From: Nitrospirales bacterium
GTDB taxonomy: Bacteria; Nitrospirota; Nitrospiria; Nitrospirales; UBA8639
DNA: 32,238 bases
Direction: 5' to 3'
Assembly (NCBI GenBank): GCA_021604105.1
Contig: BQIW01000054.1
Location: 1 to 32,238, forward strand
The notes beneath the pieces are model-generated. The model saw nothing but the letters and a program-made list of their open reading frames with translations, did no database searches and was not told where the DNA came from. Both the position numbers and the translations under genes were made by a program. This document shows positions 10,240 through 31,905 of the stretch, piece by piece (positions within the stretch are counted from its first letter, which is position 1; every line of letters starts with the position of its first letter).

Positions 10240-10284
10240 ATGGCCCTTGGGCGATGACTGTTCGCCTCAAATCACGAGTCTTCT

Positions 10285-10809
10285 ATGCTCATTGACCGAT
10301 TCAAAAACGAGGTTGAAGACATTCTCTCCCGCTATCCCGTCAAGCGGTCGGCATTGCTGCCGTTATTGAATTTGGCGCAGCGGGAAGAAGGGTTTGTGAG
10401 TGAATCGGCCATGAAGGAAATTGCCAAAGTTTTGGGTTTGACTCCGGCACAGGTGTTTGAGACCGTCACCTTTTATACCATGTTCAATCTCAAGCCGATC
10501 GGGAAATTTCACCTTCAAGTCTGCAAATCGCTTATGTGCGCGTTGGTCGGATCTGATGAGGTGGTGGTATGGATTCAGAAAAAACTCGGCATTGCACAAG
10601 GTCAGACAACAGCAGATAACCTTTTTACCCTCAGCGTGGTGGAGTGTCTTGGGTCCTGTGGTACAGGTCCCATGATGCAAGTGAATGATGATTATTACGA
10701 GCAATTATCCGAAGAAAAGGTCGGACGTGTTCTGGACGATTTGAAACGAGACGGAACCTGTTCGCTTAAAACAGGACCCTTCATGTATCCTCAGCCCCTG
10801 GCTAAATGA
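10285..10809 (+). CDS. nuoE: NADH-quinone oxidoreductase subunit E ([2Fe-2S] N1a)
   Basis: This 174-residue thioredoxin-like ferredoxin subunit has four cluster ligands in the expected C-x4-C and C-x3-C pairs: C80 and C85 (VCKSLMCALVG) and C121 and C125 (VECLGSCGTGP). The N-terminal helical bundle includes the family motif VFETVTFYTMF. NuoE, with NuoF and NuoG, makes the NADH-oxidising module, so this complex I should use NADH and is not the ferredoxin-only, EFG-less type. The ATG at 10285 follows CACGAGTCTTCT, a weak ribosome-binding site. Spacing to nuoF is 80 bases. Confidence 0.97.
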   Translation: MLIDRFKNEVEDILSRYPVKRSALLPLLNLAQREEGFVSESAMKEIAKVLGLTPAQVFETVTFYTMFNLKPIGKFHLQVCKSLMCALVGSDEVVVWIQKKLGIAQGQTTADNLFTLSVVECLGSCGTGPMMQVNDDYYEQLSEEKVGRVLDDLKRDGTCSLKTGPFMYPQPLAK

Positions 10810-29273: not shown

Positions 29274-29921
29274 GTGGCCACCGTTCTCCCACTCAATTCC
29301 CTTCCATCGCCTCAACTGATTCATCAGGTTGCGCAATGTCTGCAGGGTGGCGGAGTCTTGGCTGTGCCAACCGACAGCTTTTACGCGCTGTCGGTGAGTC
29401 CCCTCAATGAAATGGCATTAAAGCGGCTGATGGATATCAAAGGCGAACGCAGCCACAAACCCTTTCCCGTGTTAGTGGGTGACCCTTCTCAACTGAATCA
29501 ACTGACGGAAGATATCCCCGATATCGCTCGAACACTTATGGAAGAGTTCTGGCCGGGTTTGCTCACGTTGGTATTGCAGGCTCGTTCCACTCTTTCACCC
29601 ATCCTAACCGGCGGACAGGGAACCGTTGGTGTCCGGCAACCGAATGATCCACGAGTTTGCGCACTCATGACCCACATCGGGCCGATGACCGGCACCAGCG
29701 CCAATCGAAGCGGACAGCCGCCGGCGCAATCCGCGAGAGAGGTGATGGAACAATTAGGATCGGTGGTTGATGTGATTGTCGATGGTGGACCTGCGCCGGG
29801 AGGTCAACCCTCCACGGTGCTACAACTTGAGAGTGGCCTTCGTATCCTCAGAGATGGTGCAGTCACCCGAAAGCAACTTGAAGTGGTTCTTGGCCAACCT
29901 TCTTTATGGCTCCGTGAATAA
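29274..29921 (+). CDS. tsaC: L-threonylcarbamoyladenylate synthase (YrdC/Sua5 domain)
   Basis: This 215-residue protein has a YrdC fold and lacks the extra C-terminal Sua5 domain. It makes threonylcarbamoyl-AMP for the t6A37 modification of ANN-decoding tRNAs. Motifs: VLAVPTDSFYALS (usually PTDTVYGL), DIKGERSHKPFPVLV (the K-x-R and KPF substrate site), GTVGVRQPND and TGTSANRSGQPP. The start is GTG at 29274, 17 bases after purD, so it is probably cotranscribed. The next gene on this strand belongs to the unrelated repeat region. Confidence 0.92.
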   Translation: MATVLPLNSLPSPQLIHQVAQCLQGGGVLAVPTDSFYALSVSPLNEMALKRLMDIKGERSHKPFPVLVGDPSQLNQLTEDIPDIARTLMEEFWPGLLTLVLQARSTLSPILTGGQGTVGVRQPNDPRVCALMTHIGPMTGTSANRSGQPPAQSAREVMEQLGSVVDVIVDGGPAPGGQPSTVLQLESGLRILRDGAVTRKQLEVVLGQPSLWLRE

Positions 29922-30058
29922 TGAGATAAAAATGTTCAAACATTGTGATAAATCTTAAAGATCAAAGATTTCAGGAAGATTGGTGACGTTCAATCCTGAA
30001 TTTAATTCTTTACCCTTGCGCTGTATTATTCAGAATGCAATTTAAGGAATGATAACCA

Positions 30059-30490
30059 GTGGGCTTTCTTGATTTTTTGATTAACAAATTTGCAGGAAAT
30101 GAAATTCAAATTACTCTGAATAAGGACGTTGTTGCTTTCCGATCGGGAGACGCAAGCTTACATCTGAAACCTGTTGTATATCTGGCAGCCGAATCCAGCA
30201 ATCCTCGAGTCCTTTCAATTGGTAATTCCACTGATCCAATCGAACCTTTTGAACGCATTGATCTCTTTGATGGTAACCGAATCCTAGTCAAGGGTTTGGA
30301 CAAAACTAATGCTTTGGAAATGTTTTTACATTTTGGCTTCACCCAATTAGCGGGTCGCCTGGCTTTAGTCCGACCTAGGGTGAAATTTATCCTTGGGAAC
30401 CCATTATCAGAGATTTTCGGGGGATATGAGCGTGTGGTGCTCATGCAAGCCGCGGCAAATGCCGGGGCGCGGGAAGTGGTTTTAGAATAA
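30059..30490 (+). CDS. MreB-like subdomain-I-only protein, copy 1
   Basis: This 143-residue protein reads like the N-terminal actin half (subdomains IA/IB) of MreB. The start MGFLDFLINKFAGNEIQITL matches the MreB opening (FxxxFxNDLxIDLG). LKPVVYLAAE matches LNEPSVVAI, NPRVLSIGN matches the KVLAVG strand, and RPRVKFILGNPLSEIFGGYERVV then AGAREVVLE matches PRVxxxVPxGxTxxERRxx...AGAREVYLIEEP. The phosphate loop DLGTANT is replaced by TLNKDVV, and the protein stops exactly where the catalytic EPMAAAIG helix would begin, so ATP binding is unlikely. The start is GTG with AAGGA ten bases upstream. Differences from copy 2 are spread over third positions and include an in-frame six-base indel, which supports a real coding sequence. 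Function is unknown. Confidence 0.7.
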   Translation: MGFLDFLINKFAGNEIQITLNKDVVAFRSGDASLHLKPVVYLAAESSNPRVLSIGNSTDPIEPFERIDLFDGNRILVKGLDKTNALEMFLHFGFTQLAGRLALVRPRVKFILGNPLSEIFGGYERVVLMQAAANAGAREVVLE

Positions 30491-30671
30491 AAATGAAACT
30501 ACCTCAAACTGAAAACTTAAAGAGCCGAGGTTCCTTTGGCTAGGTTCATGGCCGTGGTCAGGTCTTACCATACGATATTCAGCAAGTATAGCCCCATAGG
30601 AACGAAGTCATTTCTCCGCATGGCATTTCCATTCTCCGAAATGTGTTGTGGTGTGACCATAGCGTTTGAAA

Positions 30672-30822
30672 AAAACGGGTTTCGCCCCGGCAGGCGAGGC
30701 CCTTTTGTTTCGGCAAAAGGACCCAAAACCATTTTCACCCAGGTCGGCCAGATTGAATCGTGCTGACGAAAGTGATGGAGGGGCGGCCCAACTCGCCAGG
30801 CTCAGACAAGGTCCGCTCCTGA
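30672..30822. repeat. 150-base interspersed element inserted in unit 1
   Basis: This segment is absent from unit 2, where GCGTTTGAAA runs directly into TTTGACCGTCAG. It contains a perfect hairpin CCTTTTG-TTTCGG-CAAAAGG (30701-30720). The minus-strand reading (GENGFGSFCRNKRASPAGAKP) resembles spurious peptides I recall from dispersed repeats in many proteobacterial and Nitrospira genomes. That recollection is unverified. Confidence 0.55.
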
Positions 30823-30856
30823 TTTGAGCGTCAGCCCGGTTGGCCGACCTGCAGGT

Positions 30857-30885
30857 GGGGTGGGGTAATGCGATTGGGGGCGGGG
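30857..30885 (+). other. G-quadruplex candidate in unit 1
   Basis: Four G-runs (30857-30860, 30862-30865, 30876-30880, 30882-30885) have loops of 1, 10 and 1 bases. The same place in unit 2 has lost the runs, so it is not a conserved feature of the repeat. Confidence 0.3.
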
Positions 30886-31005
30886 TAGGTCTAGTAAGAA
30901 GACCGTGGATTGGCATGCGGTGGTGCAGATGAGTGAAGACGGGTTTAGGGGCAAGTCTGTTGTTGAGAGTTTAATCAATACTCATGCCTGACCCCAATTC
31001 TTAAT

Positions 31006-31905
31006 TCTGTTAAACCTTAAAAATCCAAGATTGCAGGAAGTTTGGTTAAATTCAATTCTGAAATTAATTTTTAAATTACCCTTGCTTTAGGCCATATGAA
31101 TATATTTAAGGAATGAAAGACAATGGGCCTTCTTGATTTTTTGATTTACAAATTCGCAGCAAATGAAGTTAAAATTACTTTAAACAAAGACGTTGTAAAT
31201 TTTCGATCTGGAGACAAAAGCTTAAGTCTTGAACCTGTGGTATATCTGGCAGTCGACTCTACTCGAGTTCTTTCATTTGGTAATTCCACTGATCTCACCG
31301 AACCCTTTGAACGCATTAACCTCTTTGATGGTAAACGAATTCAAATCAAGGGAGTAGACAAAGCGGATGCTTTAGCAGGGTTTTTACAATTTGGATTCAC
31401 TCAATTAGCAGATCGGCGGGCTTGGGTCCGACCGAGGGCGATAATTGTTCTTGGGAACCCATTATCAGAGATTTTCGGAGGATATGAGCGTGTGGTGCTC
31501 ATGCAAACAGCGGCAAATGCCGGGGCGCGCGAAGTGGTTTTAGAATAAAAATGAAAATACCTCGAAACTGAAAACTTAAGGAGCCGAGGTTCCTTTGGCT
31601 AGGTTCATGGCCGTGGTCAGGTCTTACTATACGATATTTAGCAAGTATAGCCCCATAGGAGAGAAGTCATTTCTCGACATGGCATTTTCATTCTCAGAAA
31701 TGTGTTGTGGCGTGACCATAGCGTTTGAAATTTGACCGTCAGTCCGGCTGGCCGACCAGAAGGTGGGTGAGGAATACGATAGGGTTTAGGAAAGGTATAG
31801 CAAGAAGACCGTAAATTGGCATGCGGGGGTGCAGATGAGTGCAGACGGGTTTAGGGGCAAGTCTGTTGTTAAAAGTTTAAATAATATCGATGCCTGACCC
31901 CCAAT
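31006..31905 (+). repeat. Tandem repeat unit 2 (about 900 bases)
   Basis: This is the second copy of the unit at 29944-31005, without the 150-base insertion. By hand alignment the coding part is about 84% identical and the block just after the stop about 93% identical. It ends near the TGCCTGACC at 31891-31899. Confidence 0.85.
31123..31548 (+). CDS. MreB-like subdomain-I-only protein, copy 2
   Basis: This 141-residue paralogue of the protein at 30059-30490 is two residues shorter after the ST/SSNP position. It has the same landmarks: FLIYKFAANEVKITL, LEPVVYLAVDS, RVLSFGN, FERINLFDG, LGNPLSEIFGGYERVV and the terminal AGAREVVLE. It also lacks the DLGTANT phosphate loop and everything C-terminal to the first actin half. 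It begins with ATG and AAGGA is ten bases upstream, so both copies keep the same ribosome-binding arrangement. The last 100 bases are nearly identical to copy 1 and the middle is more diverged, which hints at gene conversion or strong constraint at the 3' end. Function is unknown; interaction with a full-length MreB is a testable guess. Confidence 0.7.
   Translation: MGLLDFLIYKFAANEVKITLNKDVVNFRSGDKSLSLEPVVYLAVDSTRVLSFGNSTDLTEPFERINLFDGKRIQIKGVDKADALAGFLQFGFTQLADRRAWVRPRAIIVLGNPLSEIFGGYERVVLMQTAANAGAREVVLE

Follow-up and report, generated by a model that had tools for sequence, protein, structure and literature searches.

Gene conversion between bacterial paralogues is established, and a genome-wide survey has treated whole-gene cases such as tufA/tufB (PMC6053082). 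The tandem gene pair described here shows the same homogenisation as tufA/tufB-type concerted evolution, in which paralogues are more alike than orthologues, but its breakpoint lies inside the gene. Whereas the surveyed cases are whole-gene and long-lasting, the present one covers the last 100 bases of an open reading frame (ORF) and its flank, in a tandem pair found in one genome so far. A second point of comparison is given by REP/REPIN- or MITE-like repeats, which share with the repeat at this locus that they are non-coding, palindromic, present in tens of copies and inserted beside genes; the repeat here differs in having a ~183 bp core, extensions to ~0.5 kb and variable ends. The third is MreB, the bacterial actin, which is ~335 aa long as against ~143 aa for the protein found here, the likeness consisting of a weak profile trace and best fold matches.

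The window, that is, the whole stretch of DNA analysed, comprises 32,238 nucleotides (contig C54 of genome G000) from a Nitrospirales bacterium, whose 4.9 Mb draft genome is divided among 217 contigs with an estimated contamination of 4.37%. It contains two tandem units of ~1.06 kb each, in which a spacer leads to a small MreB-like gene that is followed by the inserted repeat element, and the contig stops ~700 bases past the stop of the second gene, gene B. The features of the two units, A and B, are as follows.

30059 to 30490, forward strand: unit A gene, encoding an MreB-like protein of 143 aa; its head groups with the orthologues in genomes G029 and G033.
31123 to 31548, forward strand: unit B gene, encoding 141 aa; its head groups with the orthologue in genome G036, and its last ~100 bases are A-like (recombinant).
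30391 to 30671, forward strand: unit A copy of the homogenised tract, made up of 100 bases at the ORF end and 181 bases of flank.
31450 to 31730, forward strand: homogenised tract, unit B copy, placed by the A/B alignment and its change point.
30516 to 30671, forward strand: the block of unit A, 5′ part of the inserted repeat element, placed by the empty site in G029/G033 versus the G036 insertion and by gene-free copies.
31575 to 31730, forward strand: the block of unit B, part of the inserted element, placed by copy searches.
30677 to 30859, forward strand: dispersed palindromic repeat (~183 bp) whose helices covary; unit B has lost most of it.
30860 to 30995, forward strand: distal tail of unit A, 3′ of the repeat, containing GGCAAGTCTGTTGTTGAGAGTTTAA ... 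TGCCTGACCCC.
31731 to 31903, forward strand: the end of the repeat that is left in unit B, together with the distal tail of that unit, placed by the A/B alignment and repeat matches.

Neither the 143 aa nor the 141 aa protein matched Pfam or PHROG. Copy B carried a weak trace of the NCBIfam MreB profile (TIGR00904, E 0.097), and the best fold match to a predicted model of copy A (mean pLDDT 55.9, low confidence) was MreB (2wus, E 7e-4). The protein is possibly a stand-alone actin-subdomain protein.

The distribution of the gene was investigated in a family-wide search of 48 genomes. High-identity matches comprised the two copies in the window's own genome and one each in G029, G033 and G036, and G039 contained one weak partial match. 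The strong cases all share one locus, after sua5; contigs that extend far enough also show purH and purD upstream of it, and the flanking gene order is common to the window's genome, G029 and G036. Other genes follow sua5 in G030, G042 and G047. The site after sua5 (after 29921 in the window; L063, L064, L066, L027 and L029) varies within the genus and looks like an insertion hot spot. With gene names assigned by eye, an AbrB-like and PIN-like pair was seen downstream of sua5 in G030, G042 and G047, and in G029 and G033 the MreB-like gene is followed by other unrelated genes. Sequences ending in GTTAGGCGTC or ATTAGACC lie 3′ of the G029 gene (L027, ~10255–10365 and 10615–10690) and looked attC-like; the likeness of the G029/G033 flank to integron attC sites is an impression by eye.

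The initial annotation of this DNA had noted that the 3′ flank of the two units is more alike than the gene, had treated this as a contrast between non-coding and coding DNA, and had proposed a functional RNA, a recombination site or a target of gene conversion as explanations. The computed alignment agreed with the first of these statements: units A and B are identical at 359/426 positions of the whole ORF (30059–30490; 84.3%) and at 169/180 positions of the flank (30491–30671; 93.9%; Fisher p = 8.5e-4), so that the equal divergence of gene and flank that would have spoken against the observation was not seen. The mismatches do not divide at the stop codon, however. When one change point was fitted to the series of A/B mismatches, the best place for it was window position 30391, with 91/443 mismatches to the left and 15/279 to the right, a split reached by 0/5000 permutations. 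Identity is 81.0% in the ORF head (30059–30390) and 95.0% in the final 100 ORF bases, which is where the near-identity had been said to begin. Since the step lies ~100 bases inside the ORF, the contrast is not one of coding versus non-coding DNA, and it is instead a ~280-base tract that stands out from all its surroundings. Within the tract, 264/280 bases are the same in A and B (94.3%), compared with 81.0% on its left (p 7e-7) and 82.5% on its right, beyond the repeat (30823–30990; p = 1.3e-4 versus the tract). Paralogue identity therefore exceeds that of both flanks, as is looked for in a converted segment. Further out, the spacer between sua5 and the gene (29921–30058) is 69–75.9% identical between units in pairwise alignments, and the distal tails are 76.3–87.8% identical.

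Comparison with the orthologues located the origin of the non-coding flank. In G029 and G033 the flank has a different sequence from ~25 bases beyond the stop onwards. Aligned with G036, the flank of G029 falls into two pieces that are adjacent in the query (bases 2–25 and 26–108) and ~511 bp apart in G036, where the intervening DNA holds, in order, the block, the ~183 bp repeat and the tail. Because the pieces are adjacent in one genome and split in the other, G029 represents the empty site and the block forms the 5′ portion of the inserted DNA. Searches with the block alone showed that the window's own genome has two copies and no more, and that copies without the gene occur elsewhere (G033:C602 and G035:C328, with a partial copy in G042:C58); the copy in G033:C602 runs directly on into the repeat (81% identity across 334 bases). 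Plasmid searches with the block gave no match. The flank is thus not a conserved part of the gene, nor of its regulatory apparatus, but the edge of an inserted genomic repeat. A tail motif, GGGGTCAGGCATGAGTATTG, was considered as a genome-wide REP and rejected, having only two sites in the genome.

These observations bear on a possible role of the flank as functional RNA or as a regulatory element held by selection in both copies. The 93.9% identity outside coding sequence would fit such a role, as would a short hairpin at the start of the block, which retains its pairs in almost all of the five copies, but selection on an element serving this gene is hard to reconcile with the empty site that follows the orthologue in G029 and G033, and with block copies that lie elsewhere without the gene. 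The block had no Rfam match at the gathering threshold or at E up to 1. Its folding z-scores on the two strands (−0.48 and 0.02) are no better than those of shuffled sequence, and the covariation term of the five-copy alignment is unfavourable (+0.56), so the block resembles an Rfam-type RNA neither by family membership nor by stability or covariation. Nor is it unusually conserved between genomes, with 88.5% identity between A and G036 versus a background of 91.2% in the neighbouring purD–sua5 genes (p = 0.24). We regard a functional RNA as very improbable, and this part of the initial proposal is not supported. No tRNA or tmRNA attachment site was found within the window, and a role for the block as a site-specific recombination site was not demonstrated.

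Sequence affinities among the five gene copies changed abruptly at 30391. In the head, B is 95.4% identical to G036, A is 88–89% identical to G029 and G033, and A and B share 81%. At 25 sites B and G036 share a base that sets them apart from A, G029 and G033, all of them within 30116–30386 and none after 30391, and sites at which B agrees with G036 but not with A fall from 53 in the head to 3 in 30391–30515. Significant jumps in identity from head to tail were confined to pairs containing B: A–B rises from 81 to 95% and B–G033 from 79 to 91%, while B–G036 drops from 95.4 to 84.0%. Pairs containing A are flat (head/tail 81.6/81.0 with G036, 88.0/87.9 with G029 and 89.2/87.0 with G033), which indicates that the ORF tail is under no special constraint and that the segment is not intrinsically conserved among orthologues. 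Tree tests were in conflict across the same point. For the head, trees grouping A and B were rejected by the AU test (p-AU < 1e-7), and for the ORF tail, trees grouping B and G036 were rejected marginally (p-AU 0.037 and 0.040), the tail test being marginal alone since it covers 100 bases and five close gene copies are known. Position 30391 is therefore a recombination breakpoint at which B switches affinity, and B, whose ORF end is A-like, is the recombinant partner there.

A comparable comparison for the block was limited to three sequences (A, B and G036). A and G036 agree against B at 8 block sites and B and G036 agree against A at 1, which makes B appear the derived copy; the donor of the non-coding part is judged from these three sequences because G029 and G033 carry no block.

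We consider it probable that an A-type segment was copied over unit B, whether through gene conversion or through a double crossover to the same effect, the flank being the edge of the inserted repeat. The two gene heads would represent old, diverged types, an A-type shared with G029 and G033 and a B-type shared with G036. RecA-type homologous recombination between the tandem copies would then have allowed the A-type segment to overwrite unit B from ~30391 to at least 30671, covering 100 ORF bases and ~180 bases of flank, and most of the repeat may have been deleted from B after or during the exchange. Unit B lacks ~150 bases of the repeat (30672–30822), between short TTTGA matches. The flank would seem more conserved than the gene because it was the latest part to be reached by recombination. 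One point against this reading is that G036, which has a B-type head, carries the block too, so that the block may first have been inserted beside a B-type gene. Of the mechanisms offered initially, gene conversion is thus the one favoured by the tree conflict and by the switch in affinity of B.

A later exchange of the gene head was also weighed, in which the units were a recent duplicate with ~94% likeness over their whole length until an allele from a G036-like relative took the place of the head of B, so that the flank shows the true age of the duplication. The head of B is indeed closer to G036 (95.4%) than the own-genome–G036 background of 91.2% in purD–sua5 (p = 0.009), but background windows of 326 bases reach 96.6%, and such a value need not mean import. 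Moreover, the spacer and distal tail of B are not G036-like (75.4% and 73.3%) and have diverged from A too (75.9% and 76.3–87.8%); a single import therefore does not account for these zones of low identity. Import of the head, which also places recombination at the same point, explains less than copying of A over B, and we judge it unlikely.

Conversion was also set against an assembly artefact, in which the tandem or a mosaic arose from two strains' alleles joined in the draft assembly. The fragmentation of the draft into 217 contigs and the end of the contig shortly after unit B led us to count strain mixing or tandem mis-assembly against the conversion reading, and the estimated contamination of 4.37% points the same way. 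However, the tracts differ at 16/280 bases and the repeat is intact in A and mostly deleted in B, so there is no obvious identical stretch at which a collapse or chimera could have formed, and G029 and G036 share the order of the flanking genes. An artefact has, in our estimate, only a slight chance of accounting for the locus.

The repeat that follows the block is dispersed well beyond this locus. BLAST-type searches, on which the copy counts are based, listed 46 matches in the window's own genome outside units A and B, for ~50 copies (e.g., L036, L037 and L050), and several of these reach part way into the block. It was present in 20/20 genus members searched, with shorter matching parts in other genera of the family, and in 39/269 genomes of the class, a search in which few candidates were scored per genome and which hence reports presence, not copy number. 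It is palindromic, dispersed and multicopy, as REP/REPIN sequences are. An alignment of 30 copies supported a long palindromic fold, in which 19/36 pairs show compensatory changes; this count, taken without a shuffled or slid control, is suggestive of selection on the fold. No match was found among plasmids or in Rfam (gathering threshold and E up to 1), and a literature search for the exact hairpin sequence returned one paper, on Treponema, which was taken as irrelevant. With regard to the terminal inverted repeats and target-site duplication of MITEs, TTAA was seen close to each end of the insertion in G036 and also at the empty site, but the surrounding sequence is A+T-rich and the ends differ between copies. 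A RAYT was considered as resident mobiliser and found no clear support, the genome holding a single Y1_Tnp match interrupted by one internal stop. Tentatively, and with considerable doubt, the repeat, whose longer form supplies the flank, might be an undescribed family of structured mobile elements in Nitrospiraceae, or the transcript of one, with its fold kept by selection and its copies seeding recombination and gene conversion near genes.

The covarying palindromic repeat, which recurs tens of times per genome throughout one genus and has no counterpart in Rfam, could merit annotation as a new family. As for the tandem pair itself, the case most likely represents ordinary genome evolution and not a hidden functional RNA. 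A non-coding flank that is more conserved than its gene between paralogues of the same genome need not mean function, and it is the orthologues that tell gene conversion from selection.
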